From Limnohabitans sp. Rim8 (GTDB lineage Bacteria; Pseudomonadota; Gammaproteobacteria; Burkholderiales; Burkholderiaceae_C), in contig CAMDFK010000019.1 in assembly GCA_945897465.1 (NCBI GenBank), positions 1 to 64,000 of the forward strand: a stretch of 64,000 nucleotides of DNA. The letters are read 5' to 3'. Both the position numbers and the translations under genes were made by a program. Shown here in pieces: positions 17,645 to 28,348 of the stretch (positions are counted from its first letter, which is position 1; each line of letters opens with the position of its first letter). The notes under the pieces were generated by a model that did no database searches, was not told the origin of the DNA, and worked only from the letters and a program-made list of their open reading frames with translations.

Positions 17645-20485
17645 TCAGTGCGCTTGCTCCCAATTCGGCCCAAAGCCCACTTCAGCCAAGAGCGGCACCT
17701 TCAGGTCCGCCACCCCTGCCATGATGCGTGGCACTTCGGTGCGAACCCATTCGACTTCTGACTCAGGCACTTCAAACACCAATTCGTCGTGCACCTGCAT
17801 GATGACTTGGGTGGCCTTGCCTTGTTCGTCGAGCGCCTTTTGCACCGCGACCATGCTCAGCTTGATCAAATCCGCTGCTGTGCCCTGCATGGGCGCGTTG
17901 ATGGCGGCGCGTTCGGCCCCAGCGCGGCGCGGGCCGTTGGGGCTGTTGATCTCGGGCAGCATCAGGCGGCGGCCAAACACGGTCTCGACATAACCCAGCG
18001 CCTTGGCCTGCTCGCGGGTGGCGTCCATGTAGTGTTTGACGCCCGCAAAACGCTCAAAGTAACGGGTGATGTAGTTCTTGGCCGCCGTGTTGTCGATGCC
18101 CAGCGCCTTGGCCAAACCGAATGCGCTCATGCCGTAGATCAGTCCGAAGTTGATGGTCTTGGCGTAGCGACGTTGCTCGCTGCTCACCGTGTCGGGCGTG
18201 GCGCCAAACACCTCGGCCGCGGTGGCTTTATGCACGTCCAGCCCTTCATGAAAGGCCTTGAGCAAGGCCGCATCGTCGCTCAGGTGCGCCATGATGCGCA
18301 GCTCGATCTGGCTGTAGTCGGCACTCGCAATCACGCAGCCCGCCGGGGCCACAAAAGCCTCGCGCACCTTGCGGCCTTCGGCGGTGCGCACCGGGATGTT
18401 TTGCAGATTGGGTTCATTGCTCGACAAACGGCCCGTCACGGCCACGGCCTGCGCGTAATGCGTGTGCACCCGGCCCGTGCGCGGCAAGGCCAGCTGGGCC
18501 AGCTTGTCGGTGTAAGTCCCCTTGAGCTTGGCCAGGCTGCGGTGCTCCAGGATGCGGGCGGGCAGCGGGTAGTCCTCAGCCAGTTTCTCCAGCACCTCTT
18601 CGTCGGTGCTGCGCGCGCCGGTGGCGGTTTTCTTGATGACGGGCAGGCCCAGCTTGTCAAAAAAGATCTCCCCCAACTGCTTGGGGCTGGACAGGTTAAA
18701 GGGCTGGCCGGCGATTTCGTAGGCCTCGGTTTCGAGCTGCACAATGCGCTCGCCCAGCGCCTGGCTTTGCGCGGCCAGGGTGGGCGCGTCAATCAGCACC
18801 CCATTGCGCTCGATGCGGTAGAGCGCCTCGCTGGTGGCGATTTCCAGGTCGTAAACGTATTTCAGGCCTGCATGCGCCTCGATCTGCGGCCACAGGGCCA
18901 AGTGCACGTCCAGGCACTGGTCCGAGTCTTCGCACGCATAGTGCGCGGCTTTGTCCACCTCCACCTGCGCAAACGGGATCTGGTGCGCCCCTTTGCCACA
19001 CAGGTCTTCGTAGGTCACGCCCCGGCGGCCCACATGCCGCTCGGCGAGGCTACTGAGGCCGTGCGGCTTGTGCACTTCGAGCACATAGCTCTGGAGCATG
19101 GTGTCGTGGGCATAGCCTTGGACCTCGATGCCATGGTTCGCGAACACATGCCGGTCGTATTTGATGTTCTGGCCCAATTTCAGGCGGGCCGGGTTTTCCA
19201 ACCAGGGCTTGAGTTTGGCCAGCACGTCGGCCAGCGGCAGTTGCTCGGGCGCAGCCGGGCCGTTGTGGGCCAGTGGGATGTAAGCCGCCTCGCCGGGCGT
19301 GACGCTCAGCGATATGCCAACGATCACAGCCCGCATGGCGTCCAGCGACGTGGTTTCGGTGTCAATCGCCGTGAGGGCTGATTGCTCGATGCGAGCCAAC
19401 CAGGTGTCGAACAGCGCCCAGTCGAGCACGGTGGCGTATTTCAAATCACCCTGAACCGAGCTGGCAGCGATATCAAGCACAGGTGCCGCGGCTGGCTCCT
19501 CGTCAGCTGCCGATCCAAACAAATCGCCCATGTCCATGTCTTTGGGCTTGGCGGTTTTGGCTTTGCTCGCAGGCGCAGGCACGGCCCCACCCAGCGACTG
19601 CACCAGCCCCTTGAAGCCATAGGTCTGGTAAAAATTCAACAGCTTGTCCTTGTCCGGCTCCTGCAGGTGCAAGCTGGCGAGCGACGGCAAATCGGGGACC
19701 CAGCCGTTCAAGTCGCAATCGGTTTTCATGGTCACCAGCGCCCGGCCTTTGGGCAACCAATCCACCGCTTGGCGCAGGTTTTCGCCCGCCACGCCCTTGA
19801 TGTCGTGGGCGTTTTCCATGAGCTTGTCGAGCGAGCCGTATTCCATCAACCACTTGGCCGCCGTCTTGGGGCCGACCTTGGCCACACCGGGCACGTTGTC
19901 CACCGTGTCGCCCACCAGGGTTTGGTAATCGATCATCAGCGAAGGCGGCACGCCAAACTCGGCCGTGACGCCCGCCACATCGCGCACCTTGCCGTTCATG
20001 GTGTCGATGATGGTGATGTGCTCGTTCACCAACTGACTCAAGTCCTTGTCGCCGCTCGACACCGTCACGGTGATGCCTTGCTGCGCGGCCACATGGGCCA
20101 AGGTGGCGATCACGTCGTCGGCCTCTACGCCCGGCACGTCCAGCACCGTCCAGCCCATCAGGCGCACCAGTTCGTGGATCGGCTCGATCTGCGAGCGCAA
20201 ATCGTCCGGCATGGGGCTGCGGTTGGCTTTGTACTCGGGGTACAGCGCGTCGCGAAAAGTCGGGCCTTTGGCGTCGAACACGCAGGCGGCGTACATGGCT
20301 GGCACATCCTTGCACAGCCGCTCCATCATGTTGATCATGCCGCGAATGGCCCCGGTGGCGGGGCTCGTCGGGTCGCCCGGCACAGCCCGCAAATCGGGCA
20401 TGGCGTGGAAGGCGCGGTACAGGTAACTGGAGCCGTCGACCAACAAGAGGGTCGGTTGGGATGTGTCGGAGGTGTTGTCGCTCAT
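17645..20485 (-). CDS. polA: DNA polymerase I
   Basis: 946-aa repair and Okazaki-fragment polymerase. The 5' nuclease domain occupies roughly residues 1-300 (LLVDGSSYLYRAFHAMP; VSSGDKDLSQLV). The 3'-5' exonuclease domain is intact, since AIDTETTSLDAM (about 373) keeps the Asp/Glu pair. The polymerase domain has DYSQIELRIMAHLS (about 722), RRYAKTINFGLIYGMSAFGLA and MQVHDELVFEVP. I chose the ATG at 20485; the frame stays open 71 codons further upstream, but that passes through the promoter and hairpin region. It has its own promoter-like TTGACG-18-TACACA just upstream. Confidence 0.97.
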   Translation of the reverse strand: MSDNTSDTSQPTLLLVDGSSYLYRAFHAMPDLRAVPGDPTSPATGAIRGMINMMERLCKDVPAMYAACVFDAKGPTFRDALYPEYKANRSPMPDDLRSQIEPIHELVRLMGWTVLDVPGVEADDVIATLAHVAAQQGITVTVSSGDKDLSQLVNEHITIIDTMNGKVRDVAGVTAEFGVPPSLMIDYQTLVGDTVDNVPGVAKVGPKTAAKWLMEYGSLDKLMENAHDIKGVAGENLRQAVDWLPKGRALVTMKTDCDLNGWVPDLPSLASLHLQEPDKDKLLNFYQTYGFKGLVQSLGGAVPAPASKAKTAKPKDMDMGDLFGSAADEEPAAAPVLDIAASSVQGDLKYATVLDWALFDTWLARIEQSALTAIDTETTSLDAMRAVIVGISLSVTPGEAAYIPLAHNGPAAPEQLPLADVLAKLKPWLENPARLKLGQNIKYDRHVFANHGIEVQGYAHDTMLQSYVLEVHKPHGLSSLAERHVGRRGVTYEDLCGKGAHQIPFAQVEVDKAAHYACEDSDQCLDVHLALWPQIEAHAGLKYVYDLEIATSEALYRIERNGVLIDAPTLAAQSQALGERIVQLETEAYEIAGQPFNLSSPKQLGEIFFDKLGLPVIKKTATGARSTDEEVLEKLAEDYPLPARILEHRSLAKLKGTYTDKLAQLALPRTGRVHTHYAQAVAVTGRLSSNEPNLQNIPVRTAEGRKVREAFVAPAGCVIASADYSQIELRIMAHLSDDAALLKAFHEGLDVHKATAAEVFGATPDTVSSEQRRYAKTINFGLIYGMSAFGLAKALGIDNTAAKNYITRYFERFAGVKHYMDATREQAKALGYVETVFGRRLMLPEINSPNGPRRAGAERAAINAPMQGTAADLIKLSMVAVQKALDEQGKATQVIMQVHDELVFEVPESEVEWVRTEVPRIMAGVADLKVPLLAEVGFGPNWEQAH

Positions 20486-20493
20486 CCCCCGAT

Positions 20494-20523
20494 TGTGTAC
20501 CGGGTTAAGGGCTTGTCCGTCAA
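20494..20523 (-). promoter_or_regulatory. Probable polA promoter
   Basis: On the minus strand TTGACG (plus 20518-20523) and TACACA (plus 20494-20499) are separated by 18 bp, and the -10 ends 8 bp before the ATG. The spacing is acceptable for sigma-70, but the leader would be extremely short, so this is tentative. Confidence 0.4.
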
Positions 20524-20533
20524 ACGACCCCAT

Positions 20534-20615
20534 GATCGGGTGGCCGGGCCTGCGCCAGGGCGATGTGGCAAAGCGAAGCGCCTCTGAGCCCTGGTGCGGG
20601 CCCGGCCACCCGATC
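20534..20615. repeat. Hairpin element 1 (27-bp stem, 28-nt loop)
   Basis: Arms 20534-20560 and 20589-20615 pair over 27 positions. The only two non-Watson-Crick positions would be G-U wobbles in a plus-strand RNA. The 28-nt loop (20561-20588) begins CGATGTGGC and ends CTCTGAG. Its sequence recurs inverted in element 2. Confidence 0.9.
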
Positions 20616-20644
20616 TCCCCGCCAGTTCTGGGCAAACCCGGGCA

Positions 20645-20728
20645 GACCCGCAAAGGGCTGACTGCGCGGGGCCTCAGAGGCGCTTCGCTTTGCCACATCA
20701 GCCCCGCGCAGTCAGCCCTTTACGGGTC
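20645..20728. repeat. Hairpin element 2 (28-bp stem, 28-nt loop complementary to loop 1)
   Basis: Arms 20645-20672 and 20701-20728 pair over 28 positions with a single mismatch (GACCCG... against ...CGGGTC). The loop 20673-20700 is the exact reverse complement of 27 of the 28 loop bases of element 1. The stem sequence is unrelated to stem 1. Confidence 0.9.
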
Positions 20729-20810
20729 AGTTGGGTCTTTTCGCCCTCTACAATCAACATTTTGCTCACCCAAGCCAGACCCCTCTGGCGATTTGACGGT
20801 TTTCTCCCCC

Positions 20811-21773
20811 ATGGCGGTATTCACCGAAGTCACCGAAGCCCAGGCCAACGACCTGATGCGAGCCCTGAACTTGGGCCAGCTCACCGCTTTGCGCGGCATC
20901 GAGGGCGGGATTGAAAACACCAACTACTTTGCCACCACCGATCAAGGTGAGTACGTGCTCACCCTGTTCGAACGCCTGACGCACGAGCAACTGCCGTTTT
21001 ACCTGCTCCTGATGAAGCACCTGGCCGGGCGCGGCATCCCGGTGCCCGACCCGGCTGCCAACCAAGAAGGCGACGTGCTGCACACCGTGAGCGGCAAGCC
21101 CGCCGCCGTGGTCAACAAGCTGGTGGGCAAAAGCCAGCTGCAGCCCCAGGCGGTGCACTGCGCGGCTGTGGGCGACATGCTCGCGCGCATGCACCTGGCC
21201 GGGGCCGACTACAACCGCAGCCAACCCAATTTGCGTGGCCTGCCCTGGTGGAACGAGACTGTGCCCGTGGTGCTGCCCTACTTAGATTTGCCCCAAGCCG
21301 CCTTGCTGCGCAGCGAGCTGGCCTACCAAAACCACATCGCCGAGGGCGCAGCCTATGCCGCCCTGCCCCGTGGCCCGGTGCATGCTGACCTGTTCCGTGA
21401 CAACGTGATGTTCGTCGGCGAGCAGCTGACCGGCTTTTTTGATTTTTACTTTGCAGGCGTGGACACTTGGCTGTTTGACCTGGCCGTTTGCCTGAACGAC
21501 TGGTGCATCGACCTGCCTACAGGCGCGCACAACACCACACGCGCCCAGGCCATGGTTCAGGCCTACAACCAGGTACGCCCCTTGAGCGCGGCCGAACGCG
21601 CGTTGCTGCCTGCCCTTTTGCGGGCAGGGGCTTTGCGTTTTTGGATTTCAAGGCTGTGGGACTACCATCTGCCCCGCGAAGCGACCATGCTCACCCCGCA
21701 CGATCCGACCCATTTCGAACGCGTTTTGCGTGGTCGGGTGCAACAGCCCATTTCCCTGTCTGACCTCGTCTGA
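20811..21773 (+). CDS. thrB: Homoserine kinase (type II, APH fold)
   Basis: 320-aa kinase phosphorylating homoserine in threonine synthesis. It belongs to the aminoglycoside-phosphotransferase-like fold used by many Betaproteobacteria, not the GHMP ThrB. GIENTNYFATT near residue 33 and the catalytic loop PVHADLFRDNVMF (about 187-199), followed by GFFDFYFAGVDTWLFDLAV, show the Brenner-type HxD...N/D site. The ATG at 20811 (MAVFTEVTE) is the expected family start. The longer open frame through the hairpins is rejected. Confidence 0.93.
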   Translation: MAVFTEVTEAQANDLMRALNLGQLTALRGIEGGIENTNYFATTDQGEYVLTLFERLTHEQLPFYLLLMKHLAGRGIPVPDPAANQEGDVLHTVSGKPAAVVNKLVGKSQLQPQAVHCAAVGDMLARMHLAGADYNRSQPNLRGLPWWNETVPVVLPYLDLPQAALLRSELAYQNHIAEGAAYAALPRGPVHADLFRDNVMFVGEQLTGFFDFYFAGVDTWLFDLAVCLNDWCIDLPTGAHNTTRAQAMVQAYNQVRPLSAAERALLPALLRAGALRFWISRLWDYHLPREATMLTPHDPTHFERVLRGRVQQPISLSDLV

Positions 21774-23087: not shown

Positions 23088-25616
23088 TTACACCAACGTG
23101 AGTTTAGCCACGCTCAGCGCCAGCCATTTCACACCGTGGCGCGGGAAGTTGACCTGCGCCCGGGCATCGGTACCCACACCCTCCACGGCCAACACTTTGC
23201 CTTCGCCAAACTTGGTGTGGAACACGGTTTTGCCCGCGCTGATGCCGTGTTCGGGCGCGGCTTTTTGCACCGGCACAGGCGGGCTTTTGTAGGTTTCGGT
23301 GCTCAGGCTGCTTTGGCCCCAGGCCGGGCGTGCATGGCGGTTGAAGGCCGGTGTTTGGGGCCAACCGCCACCCGGGGCGTTGCCGCCTCCGCTGGCGGCC
23401 TGGCCCAAGTTAGAAAAGCCGCTGTTTTTGGGCGTGACCCACTTGAGGCACTCTTCGGGCAACTCATCCAAGAAACGGCTTTTAAGGTTGTAGCGGGTCT
23501 GACCGTGCAGCATGCGGGTTTGTGAATGGCTCAGGTACAGGCGCTTGCGGGCACGGGTGATGGCCACGTACATCAGGCGGCGTTCTTCCTCCAGACCGTC
23601 AAAGTCGTTCATCGCGTTTTCGTGCGGAAACAGGCCTTCTTCGAGGCCGGTGATGAACACCGCGTCAAACTCCAGCCCCTTGCTGGCGTGCACCGTCATC
23701 AGTTGCACCGCGTCTTCGCCCGCTTGCGCCTGGTTGTCGCCTGCTTCCAGCGAAGCGTGCGTCAGGAAAGCTGCCAGCGGGCTCATGATCACACCGTCTT
23801 CGCTGAAATCGCCGGTCAAAACCTCGTCATCGCGAGGACCGATGGGACGTGGCGATCCAGCACTGGACTGCCGCGCTTCGCTCGCAGTGACGGCATTCAA
23901 ACCATTGCTTGCCTCACTCACGCCGTCATCGCGAGCGAAGCGTGGCAATCCATCTCCTGCGGCAGTCAAGCCTTGGCTGGCCGGGCTTTGCGACAAGGCT
24001 TGCGGCATGGCCACCGCACTGCGTCCAAAGCCTTCTTGGGTGACAAAGCTCTCAGCCGCATTGACCAATTCTTCCAAGTTCTCAACGCGGTCTGCGCCTT
24101 CTTTTTCGGCGCGGTAGTGGTTGACCAGACCGGTTTTTTCCAACACCAGGTCAATGATTTCGCGCAGCGTCAGCCCTTCAGTCTGCTCGCGCAGCACATC
24201 CACCATGGCCACAAACGCGGCCAAATTGGCGCCTGCTTTGCCGGTGGTGGCGCTCACCGCATCGTGCAAGGAGCAGCCTGCAGCGCGTGCGGTGTCTTGC
24301 AACTGCTCAATGGAACGTGCCCCAATGCCGCGCGGCGGGAAGTTGACCACCCGCAAAAAGCTGGTGTCGTCGTGGGGGTTCTCCATCAGGCGCAAATAGG
24401 CCAGCGCGTGCTTGATTTCAGCCCGTTCAAAAAAGCGCAAACCGCCATACACCCGGTACGGAAACCCAGCGTTGAACAGCGCAGTCTCCAGCACCCGGCT
24501 TTGGGCGTTGCTGCGGTACAGCAGCGCCACTTCCTTGCGCTCAAAGCCGTCTTGCTTGACCAACTGGCGCAACTCTTCCACCAGCCACTGCGCCTCGGCA
24601 AAGTCAGACGGCGACTCCACCACCCGCACCGGCTCGCCCGCGCCTTGGTCTGTTCGCAGGGTTTTGCCCAAACGGGTTTTGTTGTGGCTGATCAGGTGGT
24701 TGGCCGAGTCCAGAATATTGCTGAAACTGCGGTAGTTTTGCTCGAGCTTGATCTGGTGCTGCACCTGGAACTCGCGCACAAAATCGGCCATATTGCCCAC
24801 GCGTGCACCCCGGAAGGCGTAAATGCTCTGGTCGTCGTCGCCCACGGCCAAGATGGCGCATTCGCCACCCTCGCTTGGCAAACCCGCCAGCTGCTTGAGC
24901 CAGGCGTCTTGCAGCTTGTTGGTGTCCTGAAACTCGTCCACCAAGATGTGGCGAAAGCGGCGGCGGTAGTGCTCGCGCACATGCGCGTTGTCGCGCAGCA
25001 GTTCATAAGAGCGCAGCATCAACTCGCCAAAATCCACCACGCCTTCGCGTTGGCATTGCTCTTCGTACAGTTGGTAAAGCTCCACCTTGCGGCGGGTTTC
25101 ATCGTCGCGCACCGGCACATCACCCGGGCGCTGGCCGTCTTCTTTGCAGCCCGAGATGAAATACTGCACCTGCTTGGGCGGGAAGCGGTCTTCGTCCACA
25201 TTGAACTGCTTGCACAGCCGCTTGACGGCCGAGAGCTGGTCTTGGGTGTCCAGAATCTGAAAGGTCTGCGGCAATCCCGCCAGCTGATGATGCGCACGCA
25301 AAAAGCGGTTGCACAGCCCGTGGAAGGTGCCGATCCACATCGCGTTCACATTCACCGGCAGCATGGACTGCAGGCGCAGCTTCATTTCTTTGGCGGCCTT
25401 GTTGGTGAAGGTGACCGCCAAAATGCCGCCGGGCGAGACCTGCGAGGTTTGCAGCAGCCAGGCGATGCGCGTGGTGAGCACTCGGGTTTTGCCAGAGCCT
25501 GCCCCCGCCAAGATCAGGGCGTGTTCAGTGGGCAAAGCCACCGCCCGGTGCTGCTCGGCGTTGAGCTGGGCGAGCAAGGGGGACGCCGAAGCGTTCGGGG
25601 AGAATTCAGACAACAT
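23088..25616 (-). CDS. uvrD: UvrD/PcrA-type DNA helicase carrying an in-frame palindromic-repeat insert
   Basis: 842-aa superfamily 1A helicase for nucleotide excision and mismatch repair. Motif Q and Walker A (LNAEQHRAV; LAGAGSGKT), motif II (LVDEFQDTN), motif III (AVGDDDQSIYAFRGA) and motif V (TVHASKGLEFDAVFITGLEEG) are intact. ATG at 25616 (MLSEFSPNAS) is preferred over an open extension of 20 codons. Around residues 553-598, in the linker between the 2B region and motif V, the translation becomes LPRFARDDG...ASEARQSS, which is encoded by a genomic palindromic repeat (23825-23952). The frame is kept. Confidence 0.95.
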   Translation of the reverse strand: MLSEFSPNASASPLLAQLNAEQHRAVALPTEHALILAGAGSGKTRVLTTRIAWLLQTSQVSPGGILAVTFTNKAAKEMKLRLQSMLPVNVNAMWIGTFHGLCNRFLRAHHQLAGLPQTFQILDTQDQLSAVKRLCKQFNVDEDRFPPKQVQYFISGCKEDGQRPGDVPVRDDETRRKVELYQLYEEQCQREGVVDFGELMLRSYELLRDNAHVREHYRRRFRHILVDEFQDTNKLQDAWLKQLAGLPSEGGECAILAVGDDDQSIYAFRGARVGNMADFVREFQVQHQIKLEQNYRSFSNILDSANHLISHNKTRLGKTLRTDQGAGEPVRVVESPSDFAEAQWLVEELRQLVKQDGFERKEVALLYRSNAQSRVLETALFNAGFPYRVYGGLRFFERAEIKHALAYLRLMENPHDDTSFLRVVNFPPRGIGARSIEQLQDTARAAGCSLHDAVSATTGKAGANLAAFVAMVDVLREQTEGLTLREIIDLVLEKTGLVNHYRAEKEGADRVENLEELVNAAESFVTQEGFGRSAVAMPQALSQSPASQGLTAAGDGLPRFARDDGVSEASNGLNAVTASEARQSSAGSPRPIGPRDDEVLTGDFSEDGVIMSPLAAFLTHASLEAGDNQAQAGEDAVQLMTVHASKGLEFDAVFITGLEEGLFPHENAMNDFDGLEEERRLMYVAITRARKRLYLSHSQTRMLHGQTRYNLKSRFLDELPEECLKWVTPKNSGFSNLGQAASGGGNAPGGGWPQTPAFNRHARPAWGQSSLSTETYKSPPVPVQKAAPEHGISAGKTVFHTKFGEGKVLAVEGVGTDARAQVNFPRHGVKWLALSVAKLTLV
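23825..23952. repeat. Palindromic repeat inserted in the uvrD coding region
   Basis: A full palindromic copy (23825-23892: CGTCATCGCGAG... to ...CTCGCAGTGACG) plus a half copy (23923-23952: CGTCATCGCGAGCGAAGCG...CAATCCAT). The same family occurs between genes at 59123-59291 and 61708-61903. Inside uvrD its length is compatible with the reading frame and creates no stop. Confidence 0.88.
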
Positions 25617-28317: not shown

Positions 28318-28348
28318 AAAAAAGGGGAGCCTATGGCTCCCCTTTTTT
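28318..28348 (+). terminator. Intrinsic terminator after guaC (bidirectional)
   Basis: A6-GGGGAGCC-TAT-GGCTCCCC-T6 (28318-28348): a perfect 8-bp GC stem with A/T runs on both sides. It separates guaC from the convergent TauE-like gene. Confidence 0.9.

Follow-up and report, generated by a model that had tools for sequence, protein, structure and literature searches.

The stretch of Limnohabitans sp. Rim8 DNA analyzed here (64,000 nucleotides of contig CAMDFK010000019.1; hereafter the window) contains the divergent genes polA and thrB, with two long hairpins in the gap between them. The features of this region are as follows:

17645–20485, minus strand: polA (context gene)
20534–20615, plus strand (loop strand): hairpin 1, the polA-proximal copy A, 28-bp stem, covariance model score 94.7 bits
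20562–20587, plus strand: conserved 26-nt loop of hairpin 1, closing pair C20561-G20588
20573–20579, plus strand: GCGAAGC apex of loop 1 (GNA mini-hairpin motif)
20616–20644, no strand: 29-nt spacer of the inverted pair; in six other species the same interval holds a hairpin B
20645–20728, minus strand (loop strand): hairpin 2, the thrB-proximal copy C, 29 pairs, covariance model score 90.4 bits
20674–20699, minus strand: conserved 26-nt loop of hairpin 2, closing pair T20700·G20673
20811–21773, plus strand: thrB (context gene)

The arms of hairpin 1 (20534–20561 with 20588–20615) form 28 bp, two of which are G·T on the plus strand, and those of hairpin 2 (20645–20673 with 20700–20728) form 29 pairs on the minus strand, including one internal G·T and the closing T·G. 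The strand that bears GATGTGGCAAAGCGAAGCGCCTCTGA is referred to as the loop strand; it is the plus strand for hairpin 1 and the minus strand for hairpin 2. Each hairpin is fully paired on this strand; its imperfect stem positions, of which hairpin 1 has two and hairpin 2 has one, read there as G·T or G·U. Folding confirmed the two hairpins where the initial annotation had placed them, and both imperfect pairs of stem 1 are wobbles, as it had claimed. Compared with shuffled sequences, the loop strands gave z-scores of −9.7 (hairpin 1) and −10.8 (hairpin 2) in RNA folding, and the corresponding DNA values were −8.7 and −9.9. The outward-facing promoters that had been suggested on each side found no support, with no consensus promoter between 20440 and 20840. 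The open frames of polA (17645–20698) and thrB (20463–21773) extend upstream into or through the hairpins, which is a trap for start-site annotation.

A 28-nt loop sequence occurs at 20561–20588 (plus) and at 20673–20700 (minus) with one difference, and 100 shuffles of the window gave no match. The two loops are thus reverse-complementary except for one base, as first described. Because this single difference falls in the closing pair (C-G versus T·G), the true loop is 26 nt long. The same length follows from the wider family, where the base preceding the 27-nt core pairs with the last base of the core, as C-G or T-A. A generic model search of the window at E ≤ 1 returned these two copies only.

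The loop recurs far beyond this locus. In the 3.02-Mb genome to which the window belongs (G000), the 27-nt core had 11 matches at up to three mismatches, nine of them exact, and the core read backwards had none. All 11 matches are loops of long hairpins whose stems differ. Across the genus, at the same threshold, 50 of 90 Limnohabitans genomes contained the core (35 of the 56 of good quality) and 40 did not; the backwards control matched none of the 90. The random loop mutations in close relatives that the initial annotation had named as a possible counterargument were not found in these searches, which allowed three mismatches. Among the matches listed, the titles of core-matching records were mostly Limnohabitans, Comamonadaceae, and Burkholderiales. 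Also among the matches listed was a metagenome-assembled genome (MAG) titled Akkermansia muciniphila (CALQKH020000015.1 and others; L046, L071, L076), whose polA/thrB (L046) and gap (L076) sites are of the Limnohabitans type and which is probably a mislabelled bin. The family-wide core search (up to three mismatches) matched 8 of 399 genomes and 4 of 141 genera. All five core matches outside the genus are loops of hairpins whose stems are again different; two of these hairpins are imperfect. Two of the five loops carry a paired change from G-C to C-G at core positions 6 and 21. At least 114 loci were drawn by the exact loop pattern, which biases their loop identity upward; the three-mismatch searches of G000, genus, and family are free of this bias. 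As one strain may occur both as a named contig and as a genome entry, identical rows were collapsed. Relatives of the element were sought on plasmids, with two weak 35-base matches, and on viral contigs, with none; at this sensitivity, nothing supports transport on elements of that kind.

A covariance model of the family found 21 matches in G000, ten of them of a second class (type 2) with the loop C-GATTTGGCGAGCGAAGCGAGT(N)ATGA-G or a variant of it. Under the stricter filters used for searches of more than 40 genomes, by which weak matches are lost, this model matched 24 of 299 genomes and 13 of 141 genera across the family. The generic model, which covers both classes, matched 32 of 40 genus genomes at E ≤ 1e-4 (at most 30 matches in one genome) and, across the order and again under the stricter filters, 9 of 399 genomes and 7 of 158 genera, including two other families, in one of which 2 of 41 genomes matched. 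The GC content of 50 model matches elsewhere was 59%–81%. The elements are scattered, about 84 bases long, and hosted by Limnohabitans and other Burkholderiales.

This dispersal bears on the proposal that the complementary loops of the polA–thrB pair kiss, or pair over 27 bp, and thereby switch between alternative structures that act on polA and thrB. The loops are indeed complementary, both are present in the parsed intergenic region of 12 of 19 species, and six inverted pairs were found in G000, where the two models together detected 23 places. However, any inverted pair yields complementary loops. For 10 of the 23 places no partner lies within 400 bp, three of the four unpaired type-1 loops are exact, and partners can differ in loop, as at the fabI site, where type 1 faces type 2. 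A kissing-loop or long-range switch is not needed to account for the loops, and we regard it as extremely improbable.

The stems were compared in 180 parsed copies, of which 163 had stems of at least 20 bp and 160 had stems of 24–30 bp; the remainder included contig-end and broken copies. When arms were clustered at 78% identity, 184 unique copies (broken ones included) fell into 38 stem families, and a 68% cut-off merged most arms. The initial description of the stems as unrelated was nearly right, as the consensus arms of different families are slightly more alike than shuffled ones (similarity 0.46 versus 0.38). When 43 chosen copies were aligned without gaps, pairing held in 94.9% of cells, compared with 37%–46% when the register was slid, covariation was 0.80 versus 0.11–0.15, and two-sided changes were present at all 29 outer stem pairs. 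In alignment positions, the closing pair 29–56 covaries, and pair 35–50 changed once on both sides. Within nine families with at least eight mostly orthologous members, two-sided change was seen at 4 to 11 of 28 pairs. The initial annotation had suggested looking for covariation in stems versus loops: the stems covary and stay paired, and the 26-nt loop hardly varies from one unlinked site to another. Its alternative, two insertions of a common element with no constraint on pairing, is correct in that both hairpins are copies of a common element and incorrect in that pairing is constrained, as the 29 two-sided pairs indicate. At one orthologous site, at murB (L353, L355, L356, L359, L363), the stem halves are wholly different among species with pairing intact.

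Mismatches within the stems indicate which strand is folded. In 169 unique stems, selected on Watson–Crick pairs only (a symmetric rule), the loop strand carried 231 G·T and 36 A·C mismatches; an earlier count by G·T-favoring scoring had given 244 versus 30 and was redone under this rule. Counted once per family, position, and type, the numbers were 139 versus 39 (p = 2e-14, assuming independence). The excess was also present in the 38 copies of the GATTT class (85 versus 14) and in families antisense to both flanking genes (41 versus 5 in 18 copies, with context read in 13). Because the antisense families show it as well, the selected object is the folded loop strand, whatever the direction of the genes. 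A cruciform folds both strands, so a strong strand bias of mismatches would not be expected from it. Of the earlier suggestion that the element acts as DNA, a DNA role remains likely, whereas the cruciform form of it does not explain this bias. Single-stranded DNA and RNA tolerate G·T (G·U) alike, so the strand bias by itself cannot choose between them.

One alternative is that the loop strand acts as a transcript. Here, an apical module with tandem G·A, U·U, and a triloop would be bound by an RNA-binding protein or nuclease and would act on transcript ends or as a small RNA. The G·U-type mismatches on the loop strand, the GNA apices, the strong RNA fold (z of −9.7 and −10.8), and the changes at pairs 29–56 and 35–50 all fit RNA. 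In 14 of the 21 covariance-model matches in G000, a gene of the same sense lies upstream of the copy or surrounds it (three of these 14 copies lie behind a predicted terminator). Small RNAs of Bordetella also overlie the nearest published repeat, BRE (PMC3110155). On the other side, four of the 21 copies are antisense to both neighbors, two are preceded on their loop strand by a predicted bidirectional terminator, the orientation to genes flips between species at hpaH–hpaI and trxB, the strand bias is independent of gene direction, and Rfam gave no match above gathering at 14 loci. Rfam also returned 17 matches for the window stretch, mostly to microRNA models, all below gathering and taken as chance. 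An RNA element is possible, though we consider it rather unlikely; recognition as single-stranded DNA is favored, at about even confidence, with RNA as the next candidate well below it.

The second class and the distant relatives share a common tip, C-GAT(T/G)...(A/C)TGA-G, often with a GC-GNA-GC apex. A scan for tips in the frame C/T-GA(T/C)(T/G)...TGA-G/A with paired flanks gave 218 copies, among which 44 different tips, 22 to 59 nt long, were distinguished; since the frame was demanded by the scan, its constancy cannot be judged from these copies. The inner hairpin varies, and a C(GNA)G apex (GAA, GCA, or GTA) was present in 201 of the 218 copies and 28 of the 44 distinct tips, absent from the other 16, and present in 31 of the 38 copies of the GATTT class. 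Inspection by eye of 48 listed second-class copies showed that many end close to ACGCAGC and GCGGAA and have a bulged A beneath the tip. DNA mini-hairpins of the d(GCGNAGC) type are described as extraordinarily stable, melting near 78°C (PMC4686876). By nearest-neighbor energies, the isolated 28-nt loop folded no better than shuffles (DNA z of 0.63, RNA z of 1.11), and the loop strand, folded as a DNA hairpin, gained only 1.7–5 kcal/mol over its complement, so the case for nucleation at the apex comes from that literature. Taken together, the element has a fixed apical module (closing C-G or T-A; GAT(T/G).../...(A/C)TGA; apex often GC-GNA-GC) on a stem of free sequence, usually 24–30 bp.

Recurring sites of the element include polA/thrB, fabI/decarboxylase, hpaH/hpaI, etfA/acyl-CoA dehydrogenase, trxB, gap/GMC oxidoreductase, and a peptidyl-prolyl isomerase gene beside a TrhP-like U32 gene. 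Some of the Pfam-type matches behind gene names score below the curated cut-off; several names, trxB and acyl-CoA dehydrogenase among them, are presumptive, and L206, for which a Pfam search gave no family, is presumably a DNA methyltransferase. Gene contexts were read with a caller trained with polA one base out of frame; it was retrained for the 21 G000 sites, where it gave the same neighbors except for small ORFs at L186 and L195–L197. Twenty of these 21 copies are intergenic, three of the 21 lie upstream of both divergent neighbors, and one is in frame inside valS. At the fabI/decarboxylase site of G000 (L189), a predicted bidirectional terminator lies between type-2 and type-1 hairpins of opposite orientation, and transcription from the flanking genes should thus reach neither loop strand.

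A full-length valS match spans the insertion in 33 of 60 genus genomes. The insertion was present at all 30 of the valS loci read, with the CGATTT..ATGAG tip intact in 10, which indicates a weaker constraint inside this gene; 12 further loci had no insertion, one of them keeping the 5′ arm only. Other in-frame copies occur in a SpoU-family gene and a large ORF. Elements open in several frames (peptides such as SEALRFATS) and thus disturb gene annotation. Rickettsia palindromic elements are likewise palindromes inserted in frame in genes; to our knowledge, no description of them includes a conserved loop on unrelated stems.

The history of the polA–thrB site was read from 19 parsed loci of the 30 fetched. 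Thirteen were filled, 12 of them with both loops, and six had no hairpins, with a gap of 95–98 bp in five of these. The blocks adjoining polA and thrB are common to filled and empty forms, and the hairpins lie between them. Six species have a broken half of hairpin A together with a hairpin B, and one species has a chimeric hairpin. At three loci (L287, L289, L299), the 3′ arm matches its own 5′ arm and an older arm lies downstream, which fits renewal by template switching or loss from tandem copies. As the older arm could remain from a deleted tandem copy, these new 3′ arms are weakened as proof of template-switch renewal. At trxB, two species (L068 and L075) are colinear over the left flank and arm (99 of 111 aligned) and over the right arm and flank (101 of 111), and their 26-nt loops are exact reverse complements, so the loop flipped in place. 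At hpaH–hpaI, the loop is sense in seven and antisense in 11 of the loci read. Pairing is kept on the loop strand, the loop itself can flip, and its retention in both orientations argues against a cis-acting role in mRNA. A MAG from the Hainich site (L080) holds two copies at a distance of 1305 bp that have a common hairpin, arms included, and different flanks, as expected of an element that moves whole. No target-site duplication was recognised. Among the readings offered by the initial annotation, a mobile repeat that bears its head in opposite orientations on the two stems came closest, given the same head in other G000 hairpins and the loop inversion within conserved arms at trxB.

The elements could also be passive relics: old palindromic insertions that no longer have a function, whose pairing is maintained by template switching and whose similarity is maintained by conversion among copies. 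According to published work, template switching creates and repairs stems and flips spacers (PMC8794818; PMC8604942), the latter in yeast inverted repeats (PMC8604942). The half hairpins and the chimeric copy at polA–thrB, as well as the weaker tip conservation inside valS, agree with relics. They do not readily explain why unlinked sites have almost the same 26-nt loop on diverged arms, as conversion tracts so short seem implausible, and the strand-specific mismatch bias calls for selection or a strand-specific process. We therefore judge passive relics to be unlikely. Template-switch hairpins resemble the present ones in arm homogenisation and spacer inversion, but they are the outcome of a mutational process rather than an element, and the process leaves the near-constancy of the loop across unlinked sites unexplained (PMC8794818; PMC8604942).

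A gene of the Y1_Tnp family (Y1/RAYT-like) is present in 85 of 90 genus genomes, including some in which no hairpin was found, and single-stranded hairpins are the type of substrate used by Y1 transposases. The hairpins might accordingly be single-strand transposon ends mobilised by this resident protein. However, the gene has no visible linkage to the hairpins, it occurs in genomes with no hairpin at E ≤ 1e-4 (e.g., G007, G047, G055, G061, and G075), and in G000 the repeat that flanks the two RAYT-like genes is another, AT-rich one (two loci). RAYT as the partner was thus dropped as unsupported, and such transposon ends are very improbable. The two near-identical RAYT-like genes of G000 (L234 and L235, on contigs C17 and C1) lie near contig ends with TTTAATTGGG..CCCAATTAAA repeats, as the result of a duplication or a strain mixture; they adjoin what we take to be two gltB-like starts.

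In the literature searched, with the stem-loop families of 40 genomes, Bordetella included (PMC2267715, in part), outside the comparison, only the Beta-proteobacterial repeat element (BRE; Hot et al. 2011, PMC3110155) came close. BREs are 75–91 bp long with a GC content of 63.7%–78.9%, mostly intergenic with some in coding sequences, and occur in Bordetella and Comamonadaceae, where past mobility is suspected. The window copies (84 bp; GC 73% and 68%) fall within these ranges and, like BREs, the present elements have intergenic and intragenic copies in Betaproteobacteria. BREs differ in having been detected by similarity at >70% identity and in being partly arranged in tandem arrays, and the available portion of that paper describes no conserved tip, free stems, or strand bias. 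Among the present copies, one tandem pair was read in G773, and pairs in G000 are inverted. By size, composition, location, and host range, the element is possibly kin of BRE; as it was likened by description rather than by sequence, it was not filed under BRE.

REP elements of the GTAG/CGTC families are sorted by stems, loops, and end tags, with stems of 5–13 bp, loops of 2–20 bp, and an unpaired GTAG/CGTC tag (PMC3733652). They resemble the present element in being palindromic, often in inverted pairs, intergenic and intragenic, and in having G·T in stems (PMC3733652). They differ in size, since 160 of 180 stems here are 24–30 bp and the type-1 loop is 26 nt. By eye, no GTAG/CGTC tag was seen at the stem base in the flanks of the two window hairpins or of 48 type-2 copies, and the flanking of a RAYT gene by the repeat, a feature of GTAG-type REPs, was absent at the two RAYT-like loci of G000. 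The element therefore fails the tested defining features of REPs. Unlike repeats sorted by stem, loop, and tag, it has a free stem and a tip that is retained, whichever way it is oriented, from species to species and at sites that are not linked. An integron attC site was also considered, and its GTTRRRY box was not seen by eye.

The family, its strand, and its fixed tip are established by these comparisons. A tip kept nearly letter for letter on freely changing but paired stems suggests that a factor of the cell reads the folded strand. The explanation we prefer, with about an even chance of being right, is that the polA–thrB pair represents two copies of a dispersed, once-mobile palindromic element whose loop strand is read as folded single-stranded DNA by a putative factor. 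The pair would have been inserted between the polA-side and thrB-side blocks in an ancestor of part of the genus. The loop strand would fold when single-stranded, during replication, repair, or uptake, aided by the stable GCGNAGC apex, and a putative protein or enzyme would recognise the folded tip, with the stem as a rigid handle. This factor may once have mobilised the element, or the host may now use it. Stems would drift through compensatory change, probably aided by template switching, which would also flip loops. A protein partner of the hairpin was not found.

We propose more tentatively that the hairpin tip serves as a chromosomal signal, read as a single-stranded DNA fold by a Burkholderiales factor, either of the host or domesticated. 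Such a factor would act at as many as about 30 sites in a genome, whatever the gene direction and the stem sequence. If so, recognition of the tip whatever the stem would leave the stem free to evolve, and such a hairpin-tip code would escape ordinary motif or repeat searches. Reading of the folded strand by a factor would mean that ordinary freshwater bacteria have a single-strand hairpin signal in their chromosomes. Many species offer sites that are filled, half-filled, flipped, or empty, which make stem renewal and loop inversion directly testable.

Two other structures were seen in the window. A perfect 14-bp hairpin with a 3-nt loop at 28318–28348 has A and T runs at its outer ends and resembles a bidirectional terminator. 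An inverted pair at 23864–23952 lies inside a UvrD/PcrA-like helicase gene and resembles CGTC-type REPs. REPs within repair genes have been reported (PMC3733652).
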